Position numbers and translations under genes: made by a program
The notes under the pieces: model-generated
What the model was told of the DNA's origin: nothing
Databases searched by the model: none
The model's input: only the letters and a program-made list of their open reading frames with translations
DNA from: Fastidiosipila sp.
GTDB taxonomy: Bacteria > Bacillota > Clostridia > Saccharofermentanales > DTU023
Assembly (NCBI GenBank): GCA_012511175.1
Contig: JAAZGO010000024.1
Span: 1-64,000, forward strand
Direction: 5' to 3'
DNA length: 64,000 bases
Part shown: positions 7,189 to 39,442 of the stretch, in pieces
Layout of the letters: every line of letters starts with the position of its first letter
Position numbering within the stretch: position 1 is the stretch's first letter

Positions 7189-7397
7189 AAATCCCTTATC
7201 AAGCACGCTTCTCTTATTCTTCCTCTACTTGAGCCGGAATATAATGCCTGCGGCCTGTCTTTCAATATATAATAAACCTCTGGGACACGAAAGCCAGCCC
7301 GCCCCGCTTGCGACAATTCGATAACTTATGGGTCTCAACTGTGCGAAAATGATGATCCCGCATGAAAGAAAAATTAATACGAAAAGAGGTTGCCTCC
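7189..7397. promoter_or_regulatory. Divergent region between lplA and mch1
   Basis: AT-rich spacer between genes reading away from each other. Two perfect TATAAT hexamers occur on the plus strand at 7240-7245 and 7268-7273, the first with a poor TTCTTC 17 bases upstream. Either could be the -10 box for mch1. I see no clear operator. Confidence 0.35.
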
Positions 7398-8357
7398 ATG
7401 CAACTAAGCAAACGAAGCGTTGAGTTGATCGAGAAAGATATCCTGCCCCGTGCAGAAGCGTTAGGCTGTGCGGTGACCACCCTCTCGTGTGGCGCGACAG
7501 TCATTGATATGGGAATTCACGTACCTGGAAGCTGGGAGGCGGGTCGTCTTTTTACTCAAGTGTCCTTGGGAGGGCTGGGAGAAGTCTCTTTCAGCCGGTT
7601 TTGCCAGGGGCAGGTCGACCTGCCGGCTGTCGCGGTTACCCTGCCGCATCCTCAGGAAGCCTGTCTGTCATCACAGTTTTCAAGTTGGAAAATCAAGCAA
7701 ACGGGAAGCTACCGCTTGTACGGTTTTGGGTCAGGACCTGCACGGGCCATTGCCCGGCAAGATGATGTCGCCAGGATGTGGCATTACCGCGACAGCTGGC
7801 ACGCCACGGCCCTGTGTGTACAAACAGCGGAAATGCCGGATAACGAAATTGCTTTGGAGGTTTCCAGGGCTTGCGATGTTGACCCCTCTCGCGTTTATCT
7901 TCTGGCGGCAACAACGGGCAGCCTGGTTGGCTGTATTCAGATTTGCGCCCGTATGCCTGAAGTGGCCCTCTGGGGGTTGGCTGTCAACGGCTTCCCGCTG
8001 GAAACCGTTCTTGGCTTTGATGGTTACGGGGTTGTCGCACCCTGTGCAAGGGATGAGCTTCTTGCAATGGACCGCGTCAATAATTCCATCTTTTATGGTT
8101 CGTACGCACGCCTGCTGGTTGACTGTGAAGATCATGCGATCGAGCGTATTCTGCCAATGATGTCCTTTGCTGACACGATCCACGCGGGAAAAACATTTGG
8201 CAAGTTATTTGAAGAAGCCAACTACAACATTTACAACATGGACTTGAGTGTCCATAAAGTGGCTGTGTGCGAACTGAATAACCTTCGAAGCGGCAGGTCA
8301 TTTCGCACAGGATCCTTCAATCCGGATATACTCTACGCTAGTTTTTATGGCCCCTAA
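7398..8357 (+). CDS. mch: Methenyltetrahydromethanopterin cyclohydrolase, divergent paralog 1
   Basis: Converts methenyl-H4MPT to 5-formyl-H4MPT in the H4MPT-linked C1 pathway. The 319-residue protein has the Mch hallmarks GATVIDMGIHVPGSWEAG, GLGEVSF, SSQFSSWK, GSGPARAIA and the AATTGSLVGCIQICAR segment that carries the Arg/Glu pair of the active site. I chose ATG 7398 rather than 7362 because it aligns with the other two paralogs and gives exactly the same length. By eye about 40% of residues match the other two copies, so it is the outlier. It lies closest to the fhc operon, on the opposite strand, and may be the housekeeping partner of FhcD. Known Mch enzymes are cytoplasmic. Confidence 0.9.
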   Translation: MQLSKRSVELIEKDILPRAEALGCAVTTLSCGATVIDMGIHVPGSWEAGRLFTQVSLGGLGEVSFSRFCQGQVDLPAVAVTLPHPQEACLSSQFSSWKIKQTGSYRLYGFGSGPARAIARQDDVARMWHYRDSWHATALCVQTAEMPDNEIALEVSRACDVDPSRVYLLAATTGSLVGCIQICARMPEVALWGLAVNGFPLETVLGFDGYGVVAPCARDELLAMDRVNNSIFYGSYARLLVDCEDHAIERILPMMSFADTIHAGKTFGKLFEEANYNIYNMDLSVHKVAVCELNNLRSGRSFRTGSFNPDILYASFYGP

Positions 8358-8401: not shown

Positions 8402-9619
8402 TTATTCGGCATGCTTGGACACATACAGCGGCAATGCTGCATAAAACTGTATCGCTTTCAAATACTCGTCAACCTGAACCCTGTCCCGGTTGGAGTGGCA
8501 AAAGGCCTCGTCTCCCGGACCGAAGCCGATCGAGGGGATTCCCAAACGGCCACAAAAATGGGTCGCATTCGTGCAAAAGGACCACTTGGTGATAACGGGT
8601 TCATTTGAAAACAGATCCCGAAAGGTTTCGACCCCTGCTTGTACCAATGGATGGTTTTCGGGCAGCACCCAGGATGGCAAATAATCAACCATCTCGATCT
8701 CGTAGCCTGAATAGGTCTTCACGTGCTCCGTATTGACCCGAATCTCGACTCCTTCAATGTCCTGATCCAAGCAACGGGCTTCCATCAGGAGATCTTCGAG
8801 CGATTCATTTGCAGCAGTACGGCGGTCACAAGTGATGATGACTTGACCGGGAATCGTGTTGAGTGATGGTGTCTTGCACTCAAGACATGTCACTTCGATG
8901 GAACCCTTCCCCAAAAAAGGATCCTCCGGAAAATCCTGATAGTCGTCAATCGCTTTGATAATCGGCAGTGCTTTGACAAGCGCATTGTCTCCGCGCCAGG
9001 CTGCCGATGCATGTGCCGCTTTTCCCGGAACCAGGAACTGAAGCAGGGCTCTGCCTTTATGGCCACGCATAATGCGTAGTCCGCTTGCTTCGGCAACCAG
9101 AACAAAATCCGGCTTTATATCGAAATTTTCCTTCAACATGGCTTCAACGCTGGCACCTGTGACGGCTTCCTCCGAGACTGAACCCGAGACCCAGAGCGTG
9201 ACATGATTGGCCAGACCAAGCTCCTTGACAATTCGCCCCGCCCAAGTGATGCCCATAAGGCAGCCCTTGTCGTCACAGGCGCCCCGCCCGTGAATAGCTC
9301 CGCCCGCAAGCTGTCCTGAGAGCGGCGGATATTCCCATTCTTTCTCATCACCGAGTGAAACAGTATCAATATGCGCATCGTAAAGAATGACGCGAGGTCC
9401 GTGTCCAACCCTGCCCAAAACATTCCCAACCGGGTCGATCCGAACTTCATCGTAACCGTAAGTTCTCATTTTGTCGGCCAGGAAGCGAACCGCTCTCCCC
9501 TCATTAAATGTGACACTCTCAATTGCAACAAGGCTCGAAAGATCCTGGACGATAACCTCCCGGTACACTTCAACCATCGCTCTGATACGGCTGATCTGTC
9601 CTGCGTCACTCCGCTCCAT
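8402..9619 (-). CDS. M20-family metallohydrolase, YgeY-like (copy 1)
   Basis: A 405-residue M20 amidohydrolase/peptidase of the YgeY group, which is found in purine/selenium-linked clusters and has no firmly settled substrate; relatives cleave N-acyl, carbamoyl or dipeptide bonds. Metal and catalytic residues are present: DAHIDTV (about 81-87), GRGACDDKG, the SEE general-base pair (about 150) and a C-terminal His in EAFCHSNRD (about 375). ATG 9619, preceded by GGGAGGGCAA, is preferred over a TTG at 9634, and then aligns with the second copy at 49257-50465, with which it shares most blocks. It follows the QueG-like gene by 24 bases, so the two are probably one operon. Confidence 0.85.
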   Translation of the reverse strand: MERSDAGQISRIRAMVEVYREVIVQDLSSLVAIESVTFNEGRAVRFLADKMRTYGYDEVRIDPVGNVLGRVGHGPRVILYDAHIDTVSLGDEKEWEYPPLSGQLAGGAIHGRGACDDKGCLMGITWAGRIVKELGLANHVTLWVSGSVSEEAVTGASVEAMLKENFDIKPDFVLVAEASGLRIMRGHKGRALLQFLVPGKAAHASAAWRGDNALVKALPIIKAIDDYQDFPEDPFLGKGSIEVTCLECKTPSLNTIPGQVIITCDRRTAANESLEDLLMEARCLDQDIEGVEIRVNTEHVKTYSGYEIEMVDYLPSWVLPENHPLVQAGVETFRDLFSNEPVITKWSFCTNATHFCGRLGIPSIGFGPGDEAFCHSNRDRVQVDEYLKAIQFYAALPLYVSKHAE

Positions 9620-9643
9620 TTGCCCTCCCGCCAAAACAAGTCT

Positions 9644-11306: not shown

Positions 11307-12176
11307 TCAGTTTTCGCCTGTTTTCTTTAGCAGATACCGGGCAATTTCCAGAGGAATATCCACATCCGACACGAGAGATAATCCCCGCCATGCGGGGGAG
11401 CCGTTGACTTCACTCACATAATATGTTCCGTCCTTGGCCGGTAACAGATCAACTCCCGCCATCTCGGCACCAATAACGGAGGCAGCTTTCAGCGCTAAAC
11501 TTTTGATAGATGGAGACGGTCGGTAAGGAATGGGTTTACCTCCCAGTGCGCAATTGGCGCGCCACTCGACCCCAATCCGCCGCATCGCTGCGACCACTCT
11601 GCCTCCAAGGACAAAGACACGGATATCCTGTTGATCACACTGGATAAAACGTTGCAAATAGAGAACGGCACCATTGGAAACAAGCTCGCGAAATGACCGT
11701 TCAGCCGTTTCCTCATCGGTAAGCCGCAGCATCCCTTTTCCCCCTGATCCAAAAAGCGGTTTATAGACCACATCGCCGCCCAGGCTGTGAAAAGCTTCCA
11801 CGCCTTCGTCGACCCTTTCTGTAACGATGGTGGGTGGGACAGGTAAACCGTGTTCGGCTAGAAGCGACGAAGTATAGTACTTGTCGACTGTCTTTTCGAT
11901 CGTTTTAGGCGAGTTCAGAAATACAACCCCACGGCGCTCCAAGGCGTACAAAGCATCCATTCTGAAGATGATCTGTTCCAACGAACCACTTGGAATCGCA
12001 CGTAACACCGCACCATCACACCCATTGAACAGGTCCGGAAGATTCGGAGAGTGGGCATGGAGTGTCAGTTGATCGATCGGAATGAAGTTTGATACAGCTC
12101 CTAAACGGACGAACGCTGATAAAAGTTGTTTGGAGTGAAACCCTGGTTTTGACCCTGTGATGATAAATTTTTTCAC
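11307..12176 (-). CDS. RimK-like ATP-grasp ligase of the H4MPT/MFR cluster
   Basis: The 289-residue ATP-grasp protein resembles RimK/MptN-type glutamate ligases and the ATP-grasp protein (Orf17-type) found beside H4MPT genes in methylotrophic bacteria. Visible features: the ATP-binding Lys and Gly loop VYKPLFGSGGKGM (138-150), DIRVFVLGGRVVAAMRR (184-200) and the metal-binding SEVNGSP (255-261). It starts inside the fhcC stop (ATGA overlap), so it is the last gene of a tightly coupled operon. A likely job is adding glutamate or a similar group to H4MPT or methanofuran during cofactor synthesis; this is inference from neighbours. Confidence 0.8.
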   Translation of the reverse strand: MKKFIITGSKPGFHSKQLLSAFVRLGAVSNFIPIDQLTLHAHSPNLPDLFNGCDGAVLRAIPSGSLEQIIFRMDALYALERRGVVFLNSPKTIEKTVDKYYTSSLLAEHGLPVPPTIVTERVDEGVEAFHSLGGDVVYKPLFGSGGKGMLRLTDEETAERSFRELVSNGAVLYLQRFIQCDQQDIRVFVLGGRVVAAMRRIGVEWRANCALGGKPIPYRPSPSIKSLALKAASVIGAEMAGVDLLPAKDGTYYVSEVNGSPAWRGLSLVSDVDIPLEIARYLLKKTGEN

Positions 12177-12931
12177 TCAGTTTTCTCCGCGACAAAGATT
12201 TCAGCCTTGCAAAGTCCGCTTTTGGCACCACGATAACGCTGGAATAGCACGTGCTGCCATGAGGCGGGAAAAGGGAGATCTGCCTTTTCCATTTCCGAAA
12301 ACAGCAGCTGCAAAAACGATGAAGGAAGCTTCTCTGTCACATAGAAATCCTTCGAAATTTCTGTTTCACAGGGAAGGATCATGCTGCCGCGATCCATACC
12401 GGGGCCAATCCGGACGTGCGGGCTAAGTCTTTCTGTGACAACAACCGTTCCTCCCCGCATATCCCGTCCGATTGCAGGACCATCCATTTGCCTGACCAGA
12501 ACGAGTCCGCGGCGCATACGCCAACCTAATTCCCCACTTGCTTTCCCCTCAATCAGAACGACACCGTTCTGCATGTAATTGCAACAATCGCCCATGGCAT
12601 GACCTGAAACGCGAAGACATCCACCCTCCATGTCCCTCGCAAGCCCCGGCCCGACATCTCCCTGGATCCATAGATTTCCCTTCTTCAGGCCAGAGCCAAT
12701 CCCCATAGCACGTGAACAGTCCCCTTTGAAGACCAGCATGTTCTCCTCCCCGTGTTCGAACTGAATATCGAAAAGGCTGTCGCTGGACAGGAGCTCCCGT
12801 CCCATGCGAATACGGAGGCCAGTCAAGCTGGAACCGGAAAACGACTCTCCAAGCTGGTCGGCAACGGCTGAAAAGGGTGACAGATCCATCCACGTCCAGG
12901 GTGAATCCCTGAAAGTCAGTATGACCTTCAT
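12173..12931 (-). CDS. fhcC: Formyltransferase/hydrolase complex subunit C (FwdC/FhcC-like)
   Basis: The 252-residue protein is the right-handed beta-helix (GXGXG) subunit of the complex that moves formyl groups through methanofuran. Repeated turns can be read across residues 60-190: GDCSRAMGIGSGLKKG, GDVGPGLARDMEGG, GHAMGDCCNYMQNG, GKASGELGWRMRRG, GPAIGRDMRGG. In archaeal FwdC and glutamate synthase the same fold forms a channel or scaffold. It sits between fhcA (one base away) and the RimK-like gene (four-base overlap). The C-terminal tail (about 200-252) is longer than the repeat region needs and is unassigned. Confidence 0.88.
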   Translation of the reverse strand: MKVILTFRDSPWTWMDLSPFSAVADQLGESFSGSSLTGLRIRMGRELLSSDSLFDIQFEHGEENMLVFKGDCSRAMGIGSGLKKGNLWIQGDVGPGLARDMEGGCLRVSGHAMGDCCNYMQNGVVLIEGKASGELGWRMRRGLVLVRQMDGPAIGRDMRGGTVVVTERLSPHVRIGPGMDRGSMILPCETEISKDFYVTEKLPSSFLQLLFSEMEKADLPFPASWQHVLFQRYRGAKSGLCKAEIFVAEKTE

Positions 12932-12932
12932 A

Positions 12933-14459
12933 TCAGGCAGTCTCTCCTTTCCTCTTCAAAGTTCGCACCCCATTGTCGTCGAGGAATCGATCCGTCAAAA
13001 AGGTTTGATCAAAATCGATACTCATCCGGTGCAGAAGTTTTTTCTTGACAGATGCCCGGTCATAGTCGGGAAACGGTGTTCGCCAGATGGAGGCTGTTTG
13101 TTGCCAGCCAAGAGCAGGGTCAAGAGGCACGCCTTCCTTGATGACCTGGCGCGGTTCCCGGAACATTCGCCCGCGGTCAGGCAGGTCACGATAGATAACC
13201 AGATCGGCGTCCGCGCCAATCCCCAGCTGTCCCTTGTTGGCGAGACCAAGCGATGAAGCAGGGCCTGATCGCGTCAGTCTGGCAATTTCCGACAAGCTGA
13301 ACTCCCTTTGAATGCTTTTCAAGCAGGAGCGAGAGAGTGCCTTGCTGTTTAATTTCCCCGCCTCCGCATCACGGAATGCCTTATCCATCAGCAGCTGGAT
13401 CAAGTAGGGGTAAGCCCGGAATGATCCCCCGTTCGGATAGTCGGTCGTCAGCATGCATTGTTCCGGATTCCGGGTAAGCAGCAGAAGCTCAAGCCCGGCC
13501 AACCACTGGATCGAACCCATGTAAGAGCGCTTATATTCCAATGGGAGTGCGCTGAGCGTGCCGTCCTCCTCCCATTGTTGTTTCATCAGACCACTGCAGG
13601 CACGACGGCCACTCAGGTATTCCGCAAATCCAGCATCGGCCGTCACTACCTCTGCCGGACCGAAAACAACGGCACCGACATCCGATGTGAGCTGAGGATT
13701 ATCGTTAAGACAGCGCGCCAATTCCTGTGAAGCCGTGGTCAATCTGCCCTTATTGTCAGTTTTATAAGCGTAAAATTGTAAATGAGCCAGATGCAATCGG
13801 CGTCCCCGGGCCCGATTCACCGTATCCACAACCATCCGCCAGGCATCTCGTTGGCCGAGAAAAGGGTGATGCAGGTGAAGTGCGTGTGGCAGATCGAGGT
13901 ATTCGTTGGCGTCAATCAGGCGATCAATCATCTTCTCCGGGGAGAGTCTGTCGGACGTCATCCCTCCGCACGGGTTGATGCACTTTAGACCGTAAGCAGC
14001 GGATATGTCAAGCGTAAAAGAAAGATATTCCCGTAAAGCCGCATCTTCGCCTGTTTCAAGTAAAGCAAGAAGTGTTGGATTCTCGCCCAACCAGACAAGA
14101 TTCATCTTGTCCGGCCCCCCGCAGGCTCCTTCCAGAATCGCCTGCCGCGCGCTGAGGGCAGGCATAGCCGCGTTGACCACAGCGGTGTAGCCCAGAGCCA
14201 GATAGTCCTGGGAAATGGATTTTACACCCGGTACCACCTTCGATTGCGACTGCCGGACCAATTGAAGCGGATAGCCACAGACATGGCTGTGAATGTCGAC
14301 AGCTCCCGCCATTACGACATCCCCGGCTGCATCCAGTGTTTTGCCCTGGAACAAGGCCGGTTCTGGAATGATCTTCCCATCCCTGACCCAAAGGTCGGCC
14401 GACTCCCCCTGTTTCCCATTGACAGGATCGAACAGACGGGCGTTCATAATCTTCAGCAT
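12933..14459 (-). CDS. fhcA: Formyltransferase/hydrolase complex subunit A (FwdA/FhcA-like amidohydrolase)
   Basis: The 508-residue subunit carries the binuclear-metal hydrolase site that interconverts formyl-methanofuran with formate plus methanofuran. Metal ligands visible: VDIHSH (His 57 and 59), the Lys expected to be carboxylated in GLKCINPCGG (159), His in LHLHH (about 195-198), His in HLAHLQ (223, 226) and Asp 340 in LTTDYPNGG. In the archaeal and methylotroph enzymes this last motif is usually TTDHPN, so Tyr 341 replaces His. The length is a little short of typical FwdA (about 550-570). It overlaps fhcB by seven bases. The subunit should work with FhcB, FhcC and FhcD in the cytoplasm. 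Confidence 0.9.
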   Translation of the reverse strand: MLKIMNARLFDPVNGKQGESADLWVRDGKIIPEPALFQGKTLDAAGDVVMAGAVDIHSHVCGYPLQLVRQSQSKVVPGVKSISQDYLALGYTAVVNAAMPALSARQAILEGACGGPDKMNLVWLGENPTLLALLETGEDAALREYLSFTLDISAAYGLKCINPCGGMTSDRLSPEKMIDRLIDANEYLDLPHALHLHHPFLGQRDAWRMVVDTVNRARGRRLHLAHLQFYAYKTDNKGRLTTASQELARCLNDNPQLTSDVGAVVFGPAEVVTADAGFAEYLSGRRACSGLMKQQWEEDGTLSALPLEYKRSYMGSIQWLAGLELLLLTRNPEQCMLTTDYPNGGSFRAYPYLIQLLMDKAFRDAEAGKLNSKALSRSCLKSIQREFSLSEIARLTRSGPASSLGLANKGQLGIGADADLVIYRDLPDRGRMFREPRQVIKEGVPLDPALGWQQTASIWRTPFPDYDRASVKKKLLHRMSIDFDQTFLTDRFLDDNGVRTLKRKGETA

Positions 14460-15364
14460 GCTTTTACCTCGGACAGCAATCCTTTCAAAACATATCGTAT
14501 AGACGGGTAAGGTGATCCCATTTTCCCGTATTGCGTGAGAACCATGCCGTCGGGACGGAGGATGGTGTATTCCTCTTCGGCTTGGACCGCACTTTGGAGA
14601 CCGTCACAGGCATCCGGCGGACAAGCTGAAGGGCCTATGGCAATCAAAGGAATACCGTCCAAACGGGGGTCCACGCCACTTTCACCCAACCGTAAAACCA
14701 GATCCGTTACCTTGGCATCACATAAACTGACTACATCAAAACAACGGTCAGCGCGAGGTATGCCGCCTGACCAGACAGACGCTGCACCGCCTGCTTCTTC
14801 CAATGCAATTTCGTATGCACCCGCAGCATTGCGACCGAGAACATCCTGCCCGCTTTCCCATTGCATGGCCCCCGACAGTCTTCCCTGGTGGAGGAGCGGA
14901 TTCAGCCAATCGAAAAGTTCCGGAACAAGCACGGCTTGCCTGAAAACCAAGACCGGCTCGCACCGGCGCATAAGCTCGACTACATCCTCAAGTTCTGAAA
15001 TCCTGTCATTTCCAGGCGCCCTGCCCCGCAAAGAGGCATGGAGAGACGGCCAGACCTGGACTTCGGCCAGTGCATCGCAGCGAATGACAGGAATATCTGG
15101 TGAAAGAACTATTTCCGATGGCAAATCAGAGCTGCCCACGAAAATCACAGCCGGTGCACGGAGCATCGTGCCGACCGTGAGCGTCGAGCTCAGGCGCGGG
15201 GTAACAGAAATATAGGCACCAAGCGCTTCGGCCAATCGAAACGCAAGGCGCTGTTCTTCCAGCGATAACTCCCACAGACCGTATATTGCCGGTGCACGGG
15301 ACCGGCGCATGGCACCTGCAATCCTGGCCACCTTGCGATTTATCTGATCCCAATCAACAGGCAT
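14453..15364 (-). CDS. fhcB: Formyltransferase/hydrolase complex subunit B, lacking the redox motif (FhcB-like)
   Basis: A 303-residue protein related to the molybdo/tungstopterin subunit FwdB. Archaeal FwdB begins with a Cys-rich 4Fe-4S motif and has a Cys/Sec metal ligand; none of these is present here, and the protein starts directly at IAGAMRRSRAPAIYGLWEL. Bacterial FhcB proteins of methylotrophs have lost the same redox site, so this points to a hydrolytic, non-redox complex that releases formate. Recognisable blocks include PRLSSTLTVGTMLRAPAV, VIFVGSSDLPSE and PLIAIGPSACP. It overlaps the upstream ATP-grasp gene by 11 bases and fhcA by 7. It is shorter than most FhcB proteins. Confidence 0.8.
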   Translation of the reverse strand: MPVDWDQINRKVARIAGAMRRSRAPAIYGLWELSLEEQRLAFRLAEALGAYISVTPRLSSTLTVGTMLRAPAVIFVGSSDLPSEIVLSPDIPVIRCDALAEVQVWPSLHASLRGRAPGNDRISELEDVVELMRRCEPVLVFRQAVLVPELFDWLNPLLHQGRLSGAMQWESGQDVLGRNAAGAYEIALEEAGGAASVWSGGIPRADRCFDVVSLCDAKVTDLVLRLGESGVDPRLDGIPLIAIGPSACPPDACDGLQSAVQAEEEYTILRPDGMVLTQYGKMGSPYPSIRYVLKGLLSEVKAC

Positions 15365-16430
15365 GATTCTTCTCCAGTCGCTCGTAAAGCAAATCTGCTT
15401 TCACCAGCAAGGCATTCAGGCACGCGTCACGGGTGTCAGCTTCTGCGAAAACCGTACACAGGGGGTGCTGTGGCTTGATTATCTCGCCGGGCATCGGGAC
15501 ATCAGCCATTCCATCCTGTAACCATTCTAGCGAATTAGAAGGAACATGCACGCCCGAATCCGGAGCATAAAGCACTGCTTTGCCAACTGCTCCGACCGGC
15601 AGGTCAGTGACAGGCGGAAGCTGTCCTTCAATTTGGGCAATCGCGGGAAGAAATCCTGGAATTCTCTCAAGCAATTCGAATGAACCGCACCATCGCGGAT
15701 TGATCTCCAGCAGAAGCGGTTCGCAGTCCTCACCCATGATGAAATCAATGCCGTTCAGCCCAACCAGATGGTATTCCCGAGTTAGGCATCGCGCGATGGA
15801 AGTCAGACGGGCGAGCAGCTCCTCATTCCAGTCCCGAAGCAGAATATTTCCACAGTAGGCGTATCCTGGCACATGGAGAGTTTCGCTGATCTTCCGATCG
15901 AAGCCCAGTTGTTCTGTCACTCCCAAAAGCGTGACCTCACCCTCTGAGGCAAAGAAGCTGGCCGAAAAGGATTGGGCTTCTTGTTTTTCCTGTAAAATGG
16001 ATCCCCTGGGTATTTTTCCCCCTGTCCATGGGCGCACGCCGGTTCCGCCGTGCCGGGAAGGATTCTTCTCCAGAATCTGCACATGGTCGGGCAGTTCAGC
16101 GGCTGAAAACCAGGTAGGGGGGAACCCGATGCCCGCACAATCCAGAAAATCAAACCAAGCCCGGATATCAGCTAAGCGGCGGAGCGTGTCAGCTGAGTTG
16201 CCACTGATCTTCCCCGGGAATGATTCCACCAGCGCCTCGGCGTTTGAACCATAAAGCAACACATCGTAATGGGCTCGTTGCTGCAATGCTTCATTAAGCG
16301 AAATAACCGGAATGCCTCGTATCTTTAAATCAGCATCCCCGTACGCGTCCGCTGCGGTGACATGGTATCCTGCATCATGCAAAGAACAAGCCGGACTTCG
16401 CACTGACCAGCCGGCGACCAGCACCCTCAT
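15354..16430 (-). CDS. ATP-grasp protein of the H4MPT/MFR cluster (OrfY-like)
   Basis: A 358-residue ATP-grasp superfamily protein. The C-terminal half carries GLNGIDFIMGEDCEPLLLEINPRW, in which Asp, Glu and Asn bind the metal-ATP (split here: DFIMG then LLLEINPRWCGS), and the N-terminal part is a Rossmann-like pre-ATP-grasp domain (RVLVAGWSVRSPA). A protein of this type (OrfY) accompanies fhc genes in methylotrophic bacteria and is thought to serve cofactor synthesis; its substrate is not known to me. I chose ATG 16430, which overlaps the fhcD stop as ATGA, over a GTG at 16445. Position inside the operon, between fhcD and fhcB, supports a cofactor role. Confidence 0.75.
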   Translation of the reverse strand: MRVLVAGWSVRSPACSLHDAGYHVTAADAYGDADLKIRGIPVISLNEALQQRAHYDVLLYGSNAEALVESFPGKISGNSADTLRRLADIRAWFDFLDCAGIGFPPTWFSAAELPDHVQILEKNPSRHGGTGVRPWTGGKIPRGSILQEKQEAQSFSASFFASEGEVTLLGVTEQLGFDRKISETLHVPGYAYCGNILLRDWNEELLARLTSIARCLTREYHLVGLNGIDFIMGEDCEPLLLEINPRWCGSFELLERIPGFLPAIAQIEGQLPPVTDLPVGAVGKAVLYAPDSGVHVPSNSLEWLQDGMADVPMPGEIIKPQHPLCTVFAEADTRDACLNALLVKADLLYERLEKNHAC

Positions 16431-17305
16431 GAGAAGAGTTCCCACAAGGGAATGCGGACTTTTCCAAGGTTACCCCCATAATTGCCGGCTGTGATCCGGA
16501 CAATACCATCGATGGCAGCGGCTTCAATTCCAGCTTTCATCGCACGTCTGACATCGTTCTCGTGTTCACCGCAAAGGACAATTTCATAGCAGCAATTCAC
16601 TTCCGCCCCGATTTCTGAATCAGTCAAATAAGCTAATGACGGACAGAAGAGATGATTCGTCGAAGCACGAAGATTTTTATACCTGGATCCCACTTTGCTT
16701 CCCGAACGCACAATACCGCCAGGGAACGGCAAAATAACACGCCCGCTGGAGCGCATGGCGGCTACAGCGCATTCCGCAGCCTTCAAAGCAGCCTCGCGTG
16801 ACCGCCCCAGAAGAATCAAGTTGCCGTCGGTTGCATTTTCAAAAGATCCGAACGATTCTTCAACCAGGAATTCGCCGTCCATAACAGGGATACGCCAGAA
16901 CCTGCGGCCAAATAGCAACTTTGACATCTGGTGTCCATCTCCAAAGTAACGTAAGCTGCTTCCCACCTTAATGGGCTGGCCGCCCATGGTTCCGTTAAAG
17001 CATGCGGTCGTCGGACAGGTGAGCACACATTGGCCCACCCGAGCGATCGTCTGCTCTTCCAGCATCTGTCGTGTGAGAGACAAGATCACAATCGATACGC
17101 CGGGACGTCCATCCGGGCCCGCTTCGATTTCCGATTCAATATCCGCTTCACAACCACAGGCGACTACCGAAGTGGCGAAACCGGTTGCCTTCCTTCCGGC
17201 CTCCCTGGCCCACTCCAGGCTGTCTGCAGTAACCAGGAAACGCGTTCCCACCATATGGAAGCCTTCGGCAAACGTATTTTCAATCTCAACACCGTTAATC
17301 TTCAT
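16427..17305 (-). CDS. fhcD: Formylmethanofuran:H4MPT formyltransferase (Ftr/FhcD)
   Basis: Transfers the formyl group between 5-formyl-H4MPT and methanofuran; in bacteria it is part of the Fhc complex. The 292-residue protein shows Ftr signatures throughout: NTFAEGFHMVGTRFLVTA near the N-terminus, GRPGVSIVILSLTR, CVLTCPTTACFNG, RYFGDGHQ, RFWRIPVMDGEFLVEE and a C-terminal GIVRITAGNYGGNLGK. The length is close to the usual 296-300. It follows the amidohydrolase at 17349 by 43 bases and couples to the ATP-grasp gene by ATGA. This is the clearest single marker that the pathway is genuine H4MPT/MFR chemistry and not folate chemistry. Confidence 0.93.
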   Translation of the reverse strand: MKINGVEIENTFAEGFHMVGTRFLVTADSLEWAREAGRKATGFATSVVACGCEADIESEIEAGPDGRPGVSIVILSLTRQMLEEQTIARVGQCVLTCPTTACFNGTMGGQPIKVGSSLRYFGDGHQMSKLLFGRRFWRIPVMDGEFLVEESFGSFENATDGNLILLGRSREAALKAAECAVAAMRSSGRVILPFPGGIVRSGSKVGSRYKNLRASTNHLFCPSLAYLTDSEIGAEVNCCYEIVLCGEHENDVRRAMKAGIEAAAIDGIVRITAGNYGGNLGKVRIPLWELFS

Positions 17306-17348: not shown

Positions 17349-18689
17349 TCAGTTGGTGTACAAACGACCATATGGGATCGTTCTCTGGCGATCTTCGGCC
17401 AGGGCAATAGCTTCCCCGACCAATTCCTCTTCGGAGACAGTCTGGATGACGCCATCCATCATGACTGGTTTCCCATCGATGATGACATTTCGAACATCCG
17501 AAGATTTGCCGCAATATACAATCTGTTGAATCACGTCGTGGACGGGTGCAAAATGGACAGCGCCGGTATCCATGATCACTATGTCGGCAAGCTTCCCTTC
17601 CTCCAGCACGCCTGCGTCCAGGCCCGCTATTTCGGCGGCATTTTCAGTAGCCATTTGGTATACCTGTTTGGCAGTCAGAGCTGCCGGGTCTTCATACTTC
17701 AATTTCTGCAGCATTGAGCCAAAACGCATCTCTTCGAACATATCAAGCAAATCATTTGAGGCCGCCCCGTCCGTGCTGAGACCGACATTGAGGCCGCGGT
17801 TCAGATAATCAACAATCGGGGCGATACCGCTGCCAAGTTTGCCATTGCTCTTGGGGTTGTAGCAGATGCTGACTGCACGTTCCGCAGCAAGTTCCCGCTC
17901 GTGTTCGGTAAAATGAACAGCATGCACGGCGCAGAACGGATAATCCAGGAAGCCCACTGAATCCAGATACTGCAAGGGTGTCAAGCCGGTATCCCGAAGC
18001 GACTCCTGAACCTCCCAGGCAGTCTCCGAAACGTGGCAGAAGGTTTTCAACCCATATGCCTCGCTTGTGTCACGAAGCCAAAGCAGGTAATCCGGCGTGC
18101 AGGTAAAAGGTGTGGAGGGTGCAATGGCGACCCGTTGCAAACCTTTGTTATGCCAGCGCTCAATCGTTGAAATAATTTCAGCCCTCATTGCTTCCGCGGA
18201 TGAAGTGAAGGCTTCGGGTACCCATTTGTCAACTGCCTGAATCGCTCCGGTACCACGTATTCCAATGCGTTCCCACATGGAAAAAAGATCATCCGAGAGG
18301 ACATCCATATCGACAAAAGCGGTGATTCCACTTTTCAGCATTTCAATGGCACCGAGACCGCCATAGAAAGAGCTCAAACGATGGTCGCCTGAGTGGGCAT
18401 CTTCGAGGATGACGCCAACAAAAGGAAAAGTAACTTCTTCACACCATTCCTTAATCTTCAAACGATCTTCCACGCCCTTGAGCATATTTTGGTACAAATG
18501 CGTGTGCAGGTTCACGAAACCGGGTGCAACGACCTTATCTGAACAATCAATCGTCAGGCATCCCTCTCCCGGTACCGGGATATCAGAACCGATCCGTCTG
18601 ATTCGATTGCCCTCGACCAAGAGATTGACATCCTGGACGACGCGATCTGAATCTTGCACCAAAAAAGCGATATTTTTAAGATAAATCAT
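17349..18689 (-). CDS. MTA/SAH-deaminase-like amidohydrolase (paralog A)
   Basis: A 446-residue ATZ/TRZ-type amidohydrolase. Deaminases of this group act on adenosine-like or guanine-like rings and on triazines. Metal and catalytic residues are all present: NLHTH (His 62, 64), FCHVSET (His 219, Glu 222), AVHAVHF (His 256) and LSTDGAASND (Asp 307). Asn-Pro-Lys-Ser-Asn near 278-282 and GSGIAP follow the family pattern. A paralog of identical length, roughly 55-60% alike by eye, lies at 32516-33856 beside mch3. Both therefore associate with H4MPT genes. The spacing of 43 bases to fhcD suggests a shared transcript. The substrate is unknown; a methylated or formyl-yielding heterocycle is an inference. 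Confidence 0.82.
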   Translation of the reverse strand: MIYLKNIAFLVQDSDRVVQDVNLLVEGNRIRRIGSDIPVPGEGCLTIDCSDKVVAPGFVNLHTHLYQNMLKGVEDRLKIKEWCEEVTFPFVGVILEDAHSGDHRLSSFYGGLGAIEMLKSGITAFVDMDVLSDDLFSMWERIGIRGTGAIQAVDKWVPEAFTSSAEAMRAEIISTIERWHNKGLQRVAIAPSTPFTCTPDYLLWLRDTSEAYGLKTFCHVSETAWEVQESLRDTGLTPLQYLDSVGFLDYPFCAVHAVHFTEHERELAAERAVSICYNPKSNGKLGSGIAPIVDYLNRGLNVGLSTDGAASNDLLDMFEEMRFGSMLQKLKYEDPAALTAKQVYQMATENAAEIAGLDAGVLEEGKLADIVIMDTGAVHFAPVHDVIQQIVYCGKSSDVRNVIIDGKPVMMDGVIQTVSEEELVGEAIALAEDRQRTIPYGRLYTN

Positions 18690-18789: not shown

Positions 18790-19557
18790 TCAATCCTCAT
18801 CCATTGCTTCATCCACAACCGGTTCATCCTGGCATTGATCCTGGGGACCCACATAGACACCTATTTTGGGTAATCCCTTTAGCAAGGGTACCCCGATAAT
18901 TGCTGCAATGGCTGCAAAAAGAACACGTTGCAGCGGGGTAACCAACAATAATGGTTGGAAGATTTCGGCGGGCAGTCCATAGAGCAAAATGGCAAAGAAG
19001 TTGCCAATTGGAAGTGAAGCTCCCATGAATCCTGCAAATGCGCAGATCCAAATCGCCATAAACTGAAGGCCAATATTCTTACCGATCAGCCATCTGCGGG
19101 CAAACAAACCGCCAATGATCATTGCAATTGCCGCCAGCCCGTACAATACCATATACAGGGGGAAGGCCTGTCCTGTCGCTGTGGACAGCCAGAGTACGAC
19201 GCCGCCTCCCGCAATAACCAGAGATAATGGCCAAAACTTTCCTCCACGGCTGACGAGACCTGCCGCCAAGGCACAAAACAAGTCGGTTACAAAGCTCGCA
19301 AGCCCCAAAAGAGCAGTGTGCGGAGCGATGAGTGATCCAATAAATGAACCGACCGAGGCCGTAGCAGCACCCGCGACGGGACCGAAGAATATCCCTGCCA
19401 ACGGCGCAAAAATGACACCCACTGAGAAAGACGAACCTGTCCCAATAATGGGGATCGTTGGCAACAGCGCGGAAGCTGCGTGCAAGGCAGCCCAAACAGC
19501 AACGATGGCGGGATGCGTATTACCCAATACCGTAAACTTCTTTTTGTTCTCGCTCAT
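18790..19557 (-). CDS. ECF transporter S component, paralog 1
   Basis: A 255-residue, very hydrophobic protein with about six membrane segments, matching the substrate-binding S component of energy-coupling-factor importers. The region PIIGTGSSFSVGVIFAPLAG, FFGPVAGAATASVGSFIG and SLIAPHT is the Gly/Ala-rich S-component type. The tail is acidic and hydrophilic. I chose ATG 19557, which aligns with the paralog at 19663-20424; by eye the two are about 70% identical. Both sit downstream of the A-A-T genes. The family is not one I can link to a named vitamin. Given the neighbours, a pterin, furan or heterocycle substrate is a guess. Confidence 0.75.
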   Translation of the reverse strand: MSENKKKFTVLGNTHPAIVAVWAALHAASALLPTIPIIGTGSSFSVGVIFAPLAGIFFGPVAGAATASVGSFIGSLIAPHTALLGLASFVTDLFCALAAGLVSRGGKFWPLSLVIAGGGVVLWLSTATGQAFPLYMVLYGLAAIAMIIGGLFARRWLIGKNIGLQFMAIWICAFAGFMGASLPIGNFFAILLYGLPAEIFQPLLLVTPLQRVLFAAIAAIIGVPLLKGLPKIGVYVGPQDQCQDEPVVDEAMDED

Positions 19558-19662
19558 ACTCAATTCTTTCTGATACCTCTCTGAATGCATGACCAAAGCC
19601 TAATGATTGAGACAGCAAAACTGACTGCCATCCCAACCATTAGGCTGAATCTGTTAACCTCT

Positions 19663-20424
19663 CTACGGTTCTTCGTCTTTTATTTCTTCTTCATCAAAAG
19701 CTGCTTCCTGCGGGCCGACATAAACACCAATTTTGGGCAAGCCAATCAGCAGCGGTGTGCCAATGATTGCAGCAACCAGGGAGAAAATGGCTCGCTCCGT
19801 GGGAGTCAACAAAAGCAGCGGTCTGAAAAGTTCCGCGGGCAGTCCATACATCAAAATTGCAAGGAAGTTGCCGGACGGCACAGACGCACCAAGCAGCGAC
19901 GCGAATGTGCATATCCAGATTGCCACGAACTGAAGAACGATATTCCTGCCAGTCAACCATTTGCGGGCAAATAAACCGCCAACGACCATGGCTAGCGCAG
20001 CAAGCGCATAGAGGACCATGTACAGAGGGAAAGCACGGCCGGTAGCCGTCGCCAACCAAAGTGCCGAGCCGCCGACAGCAAAGAGCAATGACAGAGGCCA
20101 CAACTTTCCACCACGGCTAACTAAACCTGCCACCAATGCGCAAAGCAGTTCCGGTATGAAGCTGATCAGACCGAAAGTTGCTGTGTGCGGAGCAATAAGG
20201 GATCCAATGAAAGAACCGACTGTCGCTGCCGCCGCACCTGCAATAGGTCCAAAGAAGATTCCTGCCAAAGGTGCAAATATCATCCCAACGGAAAAGGAGA
20301 ATCCTGTTCCGATAATGGGAATCGTCGGTAACAGCGCGGATGCAGCATGCAAGGCTGCCCATACGGCAATTACAGCCGGATGTGTGTTACCGAGTAATGA
20401 ATATTTCTTTTTCGTACCACTCAT
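19663..20424 (-). CDS. ECF transporter S component, paralog 2
   Basis: A 253-residue membrane protein nearly colinear with its neighbour at 18790. Shared landmarks include GNTHPAVIAVWAALHAASAL, PTIPIIGTG, PLAGIFFGP and GLPKIGVYVGPQ near the C-terminus. ATG 20424 has AGAGGAATAGT just upstream, a reasonable ribosome binding site. Tandem duplication of an S component served by one energizing module suggests two related ligands or two affinities. It starts about 300 bases after the ATPase gene, with structured DNA in between. Confidence 0.75.
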   Translation of the reverse strand: MSGTKKKYSLLGNTHPAVIAVWAALHAASALLPTIPIIGTGFSFSVGMIFAPLAGIFFGPIAGAAAATVGSFIGSLIAPHTATFGLISFIPELLCALVAGLVSRGGKLWPLSLLFAVGGSALWLATATGRAFPLYMVLYALAALAMVVGGLFARKWLTGRNIVLQFVAIWICTFASLLGASVPSGNFLAILMYGLPAELFRPLLLLTPTERAIFSLVAAIIGTPLLIGLPKIGVYVGPQEAAFDEEEIKDEEP

Positions 20425-20448
20425 ACTATTCCTCTTTCTACGATGCAA

Positions 20449-20740: not shown

Positions 20741-21565
20741 CTAGTAACTTTCAACCAAATAATCACATAACTGACCCACTGTTGTCGTTTGCGGCAAATT
20801 TTTCATTTTTGCCCGGAGACGGTTGGCCAGTTGAGTGATCTGAGGAGGCAAAATATTTGTCTTTGCAAGCTCCTCTTCCTTCACAAATACTTCTTCTGTC
20901 GCCATATCCAACATAAGCTCTGCTTCGCTCAGAACGATCGTTCTATCGGCATACTCAGCGACCAAGGGCATCTGGTGGGTCACGTAAATGATCGTACGTC
21001 CCTCTTCGTGAAGGCGCCTTGCAATATCCATGATCTGATAGCAGCCCCTGTAATCCTGACCGCTGGTCGGTTCGTCCAGGATCAAAATTGGAGGATTCAT
21101 GGCCAGAACGGATGCAATGACAACCTTGGCACGATCACCCTTGCTGAGTGCAGGAGGATATTCTTCAAATTTGTCTGACACTCCGACAGCTTCCGCTGCC
21201 TTATTAACCCGTTCGTCAGCTTCATCCGATGGTATCTTTGCATTCTTTAAGGCGTACAGGATTTCGTCCTTGACAGTCGACTCGAAAAGCTGGTTATCCG
21301 GATTTTGCAGCACGAAACCAATCTCGTGCGAAATCTCCGCAACAGACATGTCCTTGTTATCCTCGCCGTTAATAAAGACCTTCCCGCTCGTCGGGCGTAG
21401 CAGGCCTGTGATATTTTTCAGGAGGGTGGATTTTCCCGAACCGTTCTGTCCGATGATGGCAACAAATTCGCCGCGCTTGATGTCCAGGCTGACATCTTTC
21501 AGAGCCTCCACACCGCTGGCGTAGGTATATGACAGATGATCAATCTTCAGAACTGTTTCACTCAC
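20741..21565 (-). CDS. ECF transporter ATPase, subunit 1
   Basis: A 274-residue ABC ATPase of the ECF type. Walker A is GQNGSGKST, Walker B is ILILDEPTSGQD, and the switch His lies in IIYVTHQMP. The signature motif is LSKGDRAK instead of LSGGQ, a degenerate form seen in one half of heterodimeric ECF pairs. The C-terminal extension has PPQITQLANRLR, the Q-helix-type region that couples to the T component. The start overlaps the stop of the second ATPase by four bases (ATGA). Confidence 0.9.
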   Translation of the reverse strand: MSETVLKIDHLSYTYASGVEALKDVSLDIKRGEFVAIIGQNGSGKSTLLKNITGLLRPTSGKVFINGEDNKDMSVAEISHEIGFVLQNPDNQLFESTVKDEILYALKNAKIPSDEADERVNKAAEAVGVSDKFEEYPPALSKGDRAKVVIASVLAMNPPILILDEPTSGQDYRGCYQIMDIARRLHEEGRTIIYVTHQMPLVAEYADRTIVLSEAELMLDMATEEVFVKEEELAKTNILPPQITQLANRLRAKMKNLPQTTTVGQLCDYLVESY

Positions 21566-22431
21566 GAGAAGGTCTCCTTATTCTTAAACAACTGATAGAT
21601 AGCTTGTTCCGCTTCATCCAGTATGATGGGATGCCGTGACATAGGCAACCCTTTTTCGCTCATTCGTCTGGACAATTCCGACACCTGAGGCGGCCTGATC
21701 CAATTGTCCTTTAGCAGGTCGAACTGTTCGAAAATTACATGCGGTGAGTCAAAGGCGACAATACGGCCGTTATTAATCACGCAGATTTTGTCCGCGTACT
21801 CAGCGATTTCCTCGCTCTTGTGCGTCGCCATGACAATGGTCATGGAATGCATACCACGAATTTTGTAGATCACCTCAAATACTTCTCGTGTTCCAATCGG
21901 ATCCAATTGAGATGTCGGTTCATCGAGCACCAGTATTTCCGGCTGCATAACGAGCGCTGTGGCAATAATCAATCTTTGTTTTTGGCCGCCCGAAAGAGCC
22001 AGAGGTGAATCTTTGACACGATGCCACAGGCCCACAACGTTAAGAGCCCATTCAATACGTTCCTTGATTTCAGCAGCGGGAAGCTGCAGGTTCTCCGGAC
22101 CAAAGGCTGTTTCTTCCTCAATGCTGTGGGTAAATATCTGCGTCTCCGGGTCTTCCAGCACCACACCGACATGGCGCGACAATTCAGCAACTGTCGTTTC
22201 CTGCGTATCCAGTCCGGCAACTGTCACTTTCCCGCGCAGTGTTCCAGAAAGCGAGTGCGGAATAATCCCATTAATGCACTGGCAGAGAGTGGATTTACCT
22301 GAACCGTTTGCCCCCATCACCGCAATAAATTCACCCTGTTTAATCGATAGGTTAATTTTCCTTAGTACCCAGCGCTTTGTCCGGCTGTAGCAATAAGAAA
22401 CATCATCAAAGCAAATCATATCCTTCACCAC
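21562..22431 (-). CDS. ECF transporter ATPase, subunit 2
   Basis: A 289-residue ABC ATPase pairing with the neighbouring ATPase to energize the importer. It has Walker A GANGSGKST, a canonical signature LSGGQKQR, Walker B ILVLDEPTSQLD and a C-terminal PPQVSELSRRM stretch. GTG 22431, eight bases after GGAGGGGG, is a better start than a GTG at 22449, which has no upstream ribosome binding site. It follows the T component by about 20 bases. Confidence 0.9.
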   Translation of the reverse strand: MVKDMICFDDVSYCYSRTKRWVLRKINLSIKQGEFIAVMGANGSGKSTLCQCINGIIPHSLSGTLRGKVTVAGLDTQETTVAELSRHVGVVLEDPETQIFTHSIEEETAFGPENLQLPAAEIKERIEWALNVVGLWHRVKDSPLALSGGQKQRLIIATALVMQPEILVLDEPTSQLDPIGTREVFEVIYKIRGMHSMTIVMATHKSEEIAEYADKICVINNGRIVAFDSPHVIFEQFDLLKDNWIRPPQVSELSRRMSEKGLPMSRHPIILDEAEQAIYQLFKNKETFS

Positions 22432-22449
22432 AATTAATTCCCCCTCCAC

Positions 22450-23199
22450 TTAAAAATAGTAGTTGGCCGTAATAATTGCGGCGCAATATAGACACACCAG
22501 CAAAAGCGCGACCCAGTCTGTTGGTTTTGTACGGATCTCACTAACGTAAGTCTTCTTCTTAAATGCGCCGAATGCACGTGAATCCATGGCAATACCCATT
22601 TGCTGGGCACGACGCATCCCACCGATCACTAGAGGTGTGACGAGGGCGGGATAGGCCTTCGCTTTCACAATGACATTCTTGTGCTCAAAAGCGGTCATAC
22701 CGCGCATTTTCTGTGCTTCCTGGATCGACCGGATCTCGCTTTGAAACATTGGGACCATATTCATGGTAGTTGTCATAATGTAAGCTGCCTTGTATGGCAA
22801 TCCCATCCTTGTCATTCCAAGGGCGAGACGATTCAAGGGCGTTGTCATTGTAAGCATGGGCATCAACAGGATCAGAGAACAGAGCCGAATACCCAGAACG
22901 ATTCCGTAAATCAAGCCGTTAAGCTTAAAAATTCCCAGAAGATTGCGTTCCGCATCAGGGTAAAAGATCATTTGCAGCACAATGATGAATACGATAAGAA
23001 AGGACAAAAATTTCAGGTACCCCGTCAGGTATTTCCCCGGAAGCCGGGCAGCAAACCACAGGGCCAAAAAAGTCACGAGAAATGCGATTACCAAATAAAG
23101 GTTGGTGACCATAAATACAGTCACAGTCAGCATCAAAACACTGAGTAATTTGATTCTCGGATCCATTCTCGTCAAGAAACTCTCTTTTGCTTCGGTCAT
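22450..23199 (-). CDS. ecfT: ECF transporter T component (transmembrane scaffold)
   Basis: A 249-residue membrane protein with about five to six hydrophobic segments. It has an N-terminal RMDPRIKLLSVL and two Ala-Arg-Gly-like coupling motifs typical of EcfT (SIQEAQKMRGMTA and GIAMDSRAFGAF), which sit on the helices that touch the two ATPases. ATG 23199 with GGAG nine bases upstream is preferred over a TTG at 23205. It is the first gene of the ECF-fhc block, downstream of tandem promoters and a structured leader. Confidence 0.9.
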   Translation of the reverse strand: MTEAKESFLTRMDPRIKLLSVLMLTVTVFMVTNLYLVIAFLVTFLALWFAARLPGKYLTGYLKFLSFLIVFIIVLQMIFYPDAERNLLGIFKLNGLIYGIVLGIRLCSLILLMPMLTMTTPLNRLALGMTRMGLPYKAAYIMTTTMNMVPMFQSEIRSIQEAQKMRGMTAFEHKNVIVKAKAYPALVTPLVIGGMRRAQQMGIAMDSRAFGAFKKKTYVSEIRTKPTDWVALLLVCLYCAAIITANYYF

Positions 23200-23267
23200 T
23201 GACAAATTCTCCTCATTTCTCTTGTGCCATAATCACCGATCATGCTCCCTGCTATCCAAGACGGCAA

Positions 23268-26339: not shown

Positions 26340-26363
26340 GTTTAGCTCCCTTTCGCTCAGATG

Positions 26364-26393
26364 AGTATAACAAAGGCCCGTAAGGGGTAGCAA
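26364..26393 (-). promoter_or_regulatory. Promoter of the XdhA-like gene
   Basis: TTGCTA (26388-26393), 18 bases, TATACT (26364-26369) on the minus strand. The predicted start is near 26357, about 18 bases before the ATG with the GGGAG ribosome binding site between them. Confidence 0.5.
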
Positions 26394-26399
26394 CTCCAT

Positions 26400-27090
26400 A
26401 TCGTGATGGCGTCAATCTGATATGCCGGCATCCTGCATTGAAATAATTGGCAGCAATGGCGCCGGAACAAAGTTCGTCATGAAACAGACCCGGTCTTCGA
26501 GCTTACTTCAGACCGCTGCCCGCAGTATCTTCATGCGCACTTGCTCCAACTCCGGCACACCTGCCGTATTTTGAATTGAGATTTTTGTGCGCGAAAAATA
26601 TTGGCCCCGTATCGGCGATCAATAAAAACATGTGTTGCTGGTCTGATTGCCTCAAATGCCATGGGGTGTCCGTGCAGCTCTCGTCTTGGCTCCTCGTTTG
26701 TAACGATATTGTTTGGAGGATGTTTTGCATGTAACGTGGCATCGACTCAGACAAGGCACCCGGAAAGCAGCTCCCTTGAATGATGTCAACAATGCGGGGC
26801 TTGCCTTCGTGTCAAGAATTTGCGCGGCAAGCGGTAGATCTTCCCATTCGGGAGATTGATCAAGAATATGAGCAGCAAACTGATTATTGTTCTGTTTCAA
26901 GGTGTCCGTAAGAAAGCCTGGCAGGAACTGGTTGACGGATCAACCTTCACCCACACTAAACCCGTTAAACGTAATCGTCATAATTTGATTTTATTCAAGA
27001 ATGAGTGCTAGACTTGCCCTGTTTATAAATAGAAAGGTGCGGCTGACCGGATATACATCAGATCGCACTGAACGAAAAGGAGAACAATAT
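26400..27090. other. Divergent non-coding region between the XdhA-like gene and mch2
   Basis: About 690 bases without a convincing gene. It contains a 10-bp palindrome ATGCCGGCAT (26422-26431) and an inverted repeat GGTTGA CGGA TCAACC (26930-26945). A weak plus-strand hexamer pair, TTGATT (26985-26990) and TAGACT (27009-27014) with 18 bases between, may drive mch2. Reading frames of 60-83 codons here look like chance. Confidence 0.45.
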
Positions 27091-28050: not shown

Positions 28051-28167
28051 TCAACCGTTTGCACCAGCTTTCCGGAGGGAGAAAAAAACGGATTTCATTT
28101 ATTAAACGGTGGTCATCATGGACAGATGCATTGCGGAAAGGAAGAGGAGCTGGAGGCGGGCCGAAAG

Positions 28168-29331: not shown

Positions 29332-29429
29332 CAGAACGGGCCCGGAAAAATTTTCATTGAAATCCGGACGTTGCAGAAGAGGATAAACCGATCGTCCTGA
29401 CTGGACTTGAAAGGTAAGGGAGCAAAATT

Positions 29430-29786
29430 ATGGAAAACCGTTATGTGAAGGAACATCCGATCTTGGCTTGGGAATTCGATGAACAGCTGACCATCTATTT
29501 TGAGGACAAGCCTCTGGTGGGGTGGAAAGGTCAGACAATTGGCGCGATCTTGTTGGCCCACGGGATCCGCTACTACCGTGAAACACAGCGGCTTCACGAA
29601 CCCCGCGGCATTTTCTGTGGAATCGGCCAGTGTTCAGACTGCTATATGATCGTTGATGGTCAGCCGAATGTGAAAGTCTGTACAAAGCTTGCCTGTGACA
29701 ACATGCATGTGCAGCGTCAGATTGGAACTGCTCAGGCAATGCTGAGACCAGACAAATCGGTTTCCGGAGAGGATGAAACAGAATGA
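29430..29786 (+). CDS. 2Fe-2S small subunit of HcnABC-type amine dehydrogenase
   Basis: A 118-residue plant-type ferredoxin-fold subunit (HcnA/gamma type). Cluster ligands are visible in GIFCGIGQCSDC and a later VKVCTKLAC. It carries electrons between the flavoprotein subunits. A ribosome binding site AAGGGAGCAAAATT precedes the ATG, and the stop overlaps the start of the next gene by four bases (ATGA). Confidence 0.85.
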   Translation: MENRYVKEHPILAWEFDEQLTIYFEDKPLVGWKGQTIGAILLAHGIRYYRETQRLHEPRGIFCGIGQCSDCYMIVDGQPNVKVCTKLACDNMHVQRQIGTAQAMLRPDKSVSGEDETE

Positions 29787-31665: not shown

Positions 31666-31731
31666 ATCGCACGGTCCCGTGTGCGATACTCCCGGCCTGG
31701 CTTTTCCCGGATTAAGACCGCTTTAGCGGTC
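31666..31731. terminator. Convergent hairpins between the ferredoxin gene and the FMN reductase gene
   Basis: Two stems without clear T-tracts: ATCGCAC/GTGCGAT (31666-31687) and GACCGC TTTA GCGGTC (31716-31731), the latter overlapping the minus-strand stop codon at 31730. They sit where transcripts from both strands meet, so termination is a fair guess. Confidence 0.4.
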
Positions 31732-32431: not shown

Positions 32432-32515
32432 CTGTCTTTTTCTCCGGCTCATCATTATTTCGTCTATCGCACATCCCAGTCATTGGGCATCTTCTGATCA
32501 CGATTGCTGCTGGTG

Positions 32516-33856: not shown

Positions 33857-33939
33857 TGACAAATACCTCCTTGTCTCAATCGTGGCTGAAGGCCGTCACC
33901 CGCCATCCGCTAATCGGAAGGCATTGGATTGACGCGTCT

Positions 33940-38288: not shown

Positions 38289-38313
38289 CAGTAGTTCTCC
38301 TACCTACAGGCAA

Positions 38314-39441: not shown

Positions 39442-39442
39442 G

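Follow-up and report, generated by a model that had tools for sequence, protein, structure and literature searches.

The closest described relative of the genes reported here is the Fhc complex of Methylorubrum extorquens (PDB 6s6y), which comes with the ligases MyfA and MyfB and is linked to genes for tetrahydromethanopterin (H4MPT) synthesis. In methylotrophs, OrfY/MyfA, which is partly similar to MfnD, and Orf5/MyfB, which is 33% identical to MptN, attach glutamates to methylofuran (MYFR) (PMC8141765). H4MPT and methanofuran genes have also been reported in Firmicutes, where their role in non-methylotrophs was called enigmatic (PMC5020050). Enzymes of this set serve methane-cycling microbes to free one-carbon units as formate. 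Here we describe a six-gene fhc unit of the anaerobic bacterium Fastidiosipila sp. (assembly GCA_012511175.1), located in a stretch of 64,000 nucleotides on contig JAAZGO010000024.1, hereafter the window. The unit has in common with the M. extorquens system the four subunits, the FhcA metal-site residues and both methylofuran ligases. It differs by a shortened FhcB, by the lack of MptG, canonical Mch and MfnB, and by its neighbours, which are an importer and a deaminase rather than genes for H4MPT synthesis. With about even confidence, we regard it as a genuine Fhc unit that includes ligases for the glutamates of its methylofuran, is uncoupled from H4MPT and releases formate as the final stage in the breakdown of N-heterocycles, probably of purine type.

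Two other described systems bear on this reading. The reductive uric acid pathway (XdhD, YgfK/UacX, SsnA, HyuA, YgeY and YgeW; PMC12507026) has homologues in this genome, including the carbamoyltransferase, although several of them score below the family cut-offs and they are scattered over two contigs; the pathway as described contains no Mch, Ftr or Fhc. The haloarchaeal Mch (HVO_2573) is, like the homologues discussed here, presumed to act without methanopterin (PMC8305020), but it is a single presumed folate one-carbon (C1) enzyme, which is neither amplified nor described in importer/deaminase operons.

RESULTS

The fhc unit

The unit and its genes are as follows.

17305-11307, minus strand: six-gene fhc unit, in the order Ftr/FhcD, ATP-grasp_3, FhcB, FhcA, FhcC, RimK/MptN-like ATP-grasp
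16427-17305, minus strand: Ftr/FhcD, formyltransferase subunit (PF01913 and PF02741 over cut-off)
15354-16445, minus strand: ATP-grasp_3 protein, predicted MyfA/OrfY-like methylofuran glutamate ligase (PF02655, E 1.7e-11)
14453-15364, minus strand: FhcB, shortened (TIGR03129, E 3e-5, its sole hidden Markov model match)
12933-14459, minus strand: FhcA, formyl-methylofuran hydrolase subunit (6s6y_A, E 3e-75)
12173-12931, minus strand: FhcC, GXGXG beta-helix subunit (TIGR03122, E 8e-25; 6s6y_C, E 9e-15; under the curated cut-offs)
11307-12176, minus strand: RimK/MptN-like ATP-grasp, predicted MyfB/Orf5-like methylofuran polyglutamate ligase (NF040720 MptN, E 2e-62)

All six open reading frames named in the initial annotation, for FhcD, FhcB, FhcA, FhcC and two ATP-grasp proteins, are present on the minus strand. 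The end-to-end overlap that it described applies to nearly all neighbours (4-19 bp), the exception being FhcA and FhcC, which lie 1 bp apart. A chance origin of this arrangement is negligible. The unit is bigger than first described, as the same strand runs upstream through a COG0402 amidohydrolase and a complete energy-coupling factor (ECF) importer, to position 23205.

Ftr is matched over both Pfam lobes (E 1.8e-52 and 5.8e-52), passes the TIGR03119 cut-off and aligns with PDB chain 6s6y_D at E 2e-79, retaining 35 of the 37 columns that are invariant across 20 canonical Ftr rows. It clusters with bacterial Ftr on a long end branch, and its closest relatives, at 58-59%, are two Ftr of the MptG-less genome G416 (G, C and L numbers are our labels for genomes, contigs and loci). 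FhcA scores 369 bits against TIGR03121, slightly below the cut-off of 393, and retains 75 of 94 canonical-invariant columns together with the HxH/K/H/H/D metal-site residues H57, H59, K159, H195, H197, H223, H226 and D340. Changes at FhcA positions K64, H106 and H108, found in the window and in G416, were considered as an altered carrier site; this idea was dropped, because the M. extorquens FhcA itself differs at K64 and H106. FhcB aligns with a profile of nine FhcB rows over 284 columns (hhalign, 96.7%, E 3.5e-10), while its predicted structure was unusable (mean pLDDT 36). Judged by sequence, Ftr, FhcA, FhcB and FhcC are homologous to subunits of the authentic complex; they group with the authentic proteins and not with unrelated amidohydrolases, which upholds the earlier assignment of a real fhcDBAC set.

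An ATP-grasp_3 homologue occupies the same position beside FhcB in H4MPT-type clusters, and the RimK/MptN-like protein is 47-52% identical to its positional counterpart in several such clusters of the phylum. Since both ATP-grasp proteins match MyfA/MyfB and sit at matching cluster places, the operon is predicted, from homology and position, to hold the Fhc complex and two ligases of its furan coenzyme. The methanofuran half of the pathway therefore looks retained, with both putative MYFR glutamate ligases encoded in the operon.

Absence of MptG and of the H4MPT context

The signature H4MPT synthesis gene MptG (beta-RFAP synthase) gave no match, even at E 10, in this 97.7%-complete genome; DmrA, Fae and Mtd were not searched. 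The model matched both positive controls, from Xanthobacter and from a Planctomycetaceae metagenome-assembled genome, and MptG is over cut-off in 11 of the 18 other Ftr-matching genomes of the phylum, on the same contig and near fhc. Nor does the MptA/FolE2-CitG-FolB portion of the H4MPT cluster, present in G478 (L056), adjoin the window fhc operon. FolD was found in this genome, in keeping with the reading given above.

The H4MPT/fhc clusters of other members of the phylum, such as G478, G602, G451 and G573, contain a homologous Grasp3-FhcB-FhcA-(Ftr)-FhcC-RimK block. The window Ftr and RimK proteins are 47-58% identical to those of G478, G602 and G451, with RimK identity as low as 41% in G573. 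Unlike the window, these clusters carry MptG and a canonical Mch between FhcC and RimK, and have no COG0402 gene nearby; the G478 cluster further contains FolE2/MptA, CitG-like and FolB genes, which the window operon lacks. In the MptG-bearing G478, the FolD C-terminal model gives only a weak match, and folate may have been replaced by H4MPT there. A DUF2193 protein (E 1.8e-251) is also encoded within the G478 fhc cluster.

A separate clade of Mch homologues

The genome encodes five Mch homologues: three in the window and single copies on contigs C32 and C6.

7362-8357, plus strand: Mch-like protein 1 (PF02289, E 2.6e-84; Mch-like clade)
27001-28050, plus strand: Mch-like protein 2 (PF02289, E 6e-97; Mch-like clade)
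35142-36101, minus strand: Mch-like protein 3 (PF02289, E 5e-96; Mch-like clade)

In the phylogeny suggested by the initial annotation, four of the five are not canonical: they belong to a clade that numbers 25 sequences, is supported at 100/100 and stands separate from archaeal, Xanthobacter and H4MPT-cluster Mch. The fifth, on C6, has a long branch, is too divergent to place and is common to the congener G298. With MptG missing, the MptA/FolE2-CitG-FolB genes not at the operon and the Mch homologues in a clade apart, the H4MPT C1 branch that the initial annotation had assigned to this locus is not borne out. For the signature gene, the absence that this annotation had itself named as refuting its reading is thus observed. 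All five homologues retain the equivalents of R183 and E186 (Archaeoglobus fulgidus numbering), which we take to be catalytic from structural work on that Mch.

Members of the Mch-like clade occur without a canonical Mch in 14 sampled genomes (G000, G416, G388, G492, G473, G620, G356, G439, G502, G452, G525, G526, G550 and G701, with G439 and G502 placed by BLAST and synteny only), and MptG is over cut-off in none of the 14. G573 has both kinds of Mch and MptG. Two genomes, G464 and G494, were removed from the Mch-like carriers, as the tree puts them with canonical Mch; each has a lone canonical-type Mch (L152, L153) without MptG or Ftr.

Catabolic linkage of Ftr and Mch-like genes

In MptG-less carriers, a COG0402 gene is adjacent to Ftr or one or two genes off in nine of nine cases, compared with none of the 17 H4MPT-type Ftr loci inspected. 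The nine genes, whose loci are not independent lineages, are those of the window, G416 (three) and G621, and the divergent Ftr of G388, G492, G473 and G620. The G416 genes run BMP-type protein, COG0402, DAO, Ftr, ATP-grasp, FhcB, FhcA, with a DAO 65% identical to the window DAO. G621 contains a collinear ECF-COG0402-Ftr stretch of 84-86% DNA identity, which stops at a contig edge inside Ftr and whose COG0402 copy is 93% identical to that of the window; the contig is small and contamination is possible. The ECF substrate-binding (S) components are tandem paralogues, two in the window and three in the collinear G621 locus (L167:1562-4102). The divergent Ftr family, 24-27% identical to the window Ftr, forms a 100/100 clade (L068:9377-10252, L098:10732-11616, L093:10507-11433, L035 and L037); its operons encode COG0402 and an MDR dehydrogenase, and in the longer sequences also an ECF importer, an FGGY kinase and a DeoC/LacD aldolase.

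In this genome, the Mch homologues stand in catabolic operons whose importers are of purine type. The neighbourhoods of Mch-like genes recur across families of the phylum, with BMP or ECF importers, COG0402, DAO and FMN reductase, and less often xanthine dehydrogenase (XDH). Group A loci combine DAO, COG0402, an ECF or BMP importer, Amidohydro_2 and PF00809; group B, FMN reductase, a BMP importer and XDH or AOR; groups C and D, GntR, a short-chain dehydrogenase/reductase (SDR), Mch, E1 alpha, E1 beta, E2 and Mch, some with FMN reductase; and group E, Mch, FMN reductase, FolB, a BMP importer and COG0402. ECF sets related to that of the window adjoin Mch-like genes in genomes without a canonical Ftr, and relatives of the window S components do so in G416, G473 and G526. 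The GntR-SDR-Mch-like-E1alpha-E1beta-E2-Mch-like operon is conserved in several families (L155:6110-13137, L157, L147-L149, L087/L088 and L091); an FMN reductase gene comes next in the genomes of L147-L149, and a degraded GntR-SDR-Mch-like-E1-E2 form with internal stops occurs in G401 (L158). The FolB-like dihydroneopterin aldolase gene of the group E operons (PF02152, E 3.5e-32) lies within Mch-like/BMP importer operons (L095, L146, L150 and L151), distant from other folate genes. Pterin-binding PF00809 and RibD_C-like genes neighbour some Mch-like and Ftr-like genes.

The window itself has the following catabolic genes around the fhc unit.

17349-18689, minus strand: COG0402 (TRZ/ATZ type) amidohydrolase/deaminase, upstream of Ftr (PF01979, E 1e-63)
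18790-20448, minus strand: two paralogous ECF S components in tandem (weak PF12822/PF07155 matches)
20741-23205, minus strand: two ECF transporter ATPases and a T component (PF00005 twice, PF02361)
8402-9634, minus strand: YgeY-type M20 hydrolase (TIGR03526, 367 bits, over the 321.5 cut-off)
24027-26399, minus strand: xanthine dehydrogenase-type molybdenum subunit (NF043082 XdhA, 647 bits; cut-off 780)
28126-30928, plus strand: DAO amine oxidoreductase and sarcosine-oxidase-alpha-like FAD/NAD subunit (PF01266, E 7e-59; PF07992)
31730-40987, minus strand: FMN reductase, COG0402 amidohydrolase, DAO, Mch-like protein 3 and BMP/PnrA-type ABC importer

The PDB matches of the COG0402 protein upstream of Ftr are chains of the methylthioadenosine/S-adenosylhomocysteine (MTA/SAH) deaminase type. 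A second YgeY over the family cut-off lies at 49257-50465, and hydantoinase-like and SsnA-like genes score below theirs. The neighbours of the Mch-like gene on C32 encode XDH subunits, a PreA/UacX-like reductase and a BMP importer. In the set for reductive purine breakdown, only the two YgeY thus exceed their cut-off; the XDH-type, UacX/YgfK, SsnA, HyuA and YgeW homologues are all below. By sequence, the YgeY, hydantoinase-like and SsnA-like genes of the window and the XDH and PreA/UacX-like genes of C32 are similar to components of the reductive urate pathway (PMC12507026), and the purine/heterocycle surroundings noted in the initial annotation are supported as a setting of N-heterocycle catabolism. 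Genes for a UbiX-like flavoprotein, a UbiD-type decarboxylase, an aldehyde dehydrogenase and an Fe-type alcohol dehydrogenase stand in a row at 44308-49136.

DISCUSSION

Our reading is founded on gene content and order, the retained metal-site residues, the absence of MptG, the position of the Mch-like proteins in a clade of their own and the recurring association with catabolic genes. From these we infer the heterocycle, the formyl donor, all of the activities, the production of methylofuran and the release of formate in N-heterocycle breakdown. An ECF or BMP importer would take up the heterocycle, the COG0402 enzyme would deaminate it, and enzymes of the xanthine dehydrogenase, DAO and PreA types would set its redox state. 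The Mch-like cyclohydrolase would then hydrolyse a cyclic amidine, N=CH-N, to an N-formyl group, which Ftr would transfer to the methylofuran carried by the complex, and FhcA would hydrolyse the resulting formyl-methylofuran to formate. The formyl donor could be a ring-opened formamidopyrimidine, folate or salvaged H4MPT.

A more specific version, which we offer tentatively as a possibility, is that the heterocycle itself replaces H4MPT, the Mch-like enzyme opening a reduced purine-type ring at its amidine (C8) side to give an N-formyl compound, Ftr taking the formyl group and Fhc with methylofuran freeing it as formate. The argument is a chemical analogy: methenyl-H4MPT and the imidazole side of a dearomatised purine are both cyclic amidines, N=CH-N, and N5-formyl-H4MPT is a 5-formamidopyrimidine.

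Several observations weigh against the formate-releasing role. The substrate and the activities of the unit are predictions. FhcB is without about 88 N-terminal columns, including the Cys motif, and drift has changed several positions of Ftr, FhcA and FhcC; the complex may thus be modified or work poorly. The pterin-related neighbours of some Mch-like genes (PF00809 and FolB) would suit a pterin carrier or substrate as well as purines. MfnB, which is required for known furan synthesis, has no match in this genome; it is likewise missing from the MptG-bearing G478 and G602, so its absence says nothing about methylofuran. Moreover, Ftr occurs in only one of the 291 genomes of the class sample, and the fhc stretch is compositionally foreign: its tetranucleotide usage correlates with the other contigs of the genome at r 0.50, compared with 0.71-0.73 for the far half of its own contig. 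Together with the rarity of Ftr and of Mch homologues among kin (the latter in one of 13 congeners searched), this fits horizontal acquisition of the fhc stretch into this genome. Mis-binning of the contig was considered and rejected, because the far half matches the genome's own contigs.

Could the unit instead serve folate-based C1 oxidation, the Mch-like protein and Ftr having switched from H4MPT to tetrahydrofolate? DAO and GcvT, both in the window, would load N-methyl-derived C1 units on folate, the Mch-like protein and Ftr would pass them to methylofuran, and Fhc would release formate. A precedent is the presumed folate-using Mch of haloarchaea without methanopterin synthesis (PMC8305020), and the retained R183/E186 equivalents and the PF00809 neighbours of certain Mch-like and Ftr-like genes would also fit. 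We nevertheless consider this unlikely, as FolD is already in the genome, a single C1 pathway would not be expected to have five Mch copies, each by an operon for an importer, deaminase or dehydrogenase, and the group C and D operons encode SDR and 2-oxoacid-dehydrogenase-like complexes and lack C1 genes. That the H4MPT pathway is real, with the adjacent ECF importer taking up H4MPT or a precursor that methanogens have made, or with a non-homologous MptG, seems to us quite unlikely. ECF systems usually carry vitamins, the importer with its two S components is complete and on the same strand as fhc, and the nearly full set of invariant Ftr columns is as such a pathway would have it. However, the Mch homologues are amplified and non-canonical, the COG0402 gene separates the ECF genes from Ftr, relatives carry BMP importers instead, and related ECF sets lie beside Mch-like genes where no canonical Ftr exists.

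Pterins are among the possible substrates of the COG0402 and XDH families, and the Mch-like and Ftr-like genes might accordingly degrade biopterin or folate-type pterins rather than purines. The FolB of the group E operons and the PF00809 and RibD_C-like neighbours point that way, and the SDR and E1/E2 proteins could act on a hydroxyketone side chain. Such pteridine catabolism strikes us as improbable, since the YgeY, hydantoinase-like and PreA/UacX-like genes indicate purine or hydantoin chemistry, a sizeable pterin source would be required, and a formyl group is not expected from pterin breakdown. Finally, the atypical composition, the long Ftr branch and the truncated FhcB might be those of an H4MPT cluster that was acquired horizontally and is decaying as a non-functional remnant. 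Six intact overlapping open reading frames with retained catalytic residues, and the collinear stretch in another assembly, make decay very improbable.

In the open-licence literature, we came across no description of the Mch-like clade, of Mch paralogues in such operons or of deaminase- and importer-linked Ftr/fhc units. Mch or Ftr genes in the genomes of anaerobes should not be taken as evidence of an H4MPT C1 pathway. Mch and Ftr homologues that appear freed from H4MPT synthesis and set in heterocycle catabolism, consistently across many genomes, provide named genes and testable substrates. If the ring-opening proposal is true, it would describe a new anaerobic route of purine ring cleavage built from C1 enzymes, and a family of Mch-like ring-opening hydrolases across Bacillota-like anaerobes.

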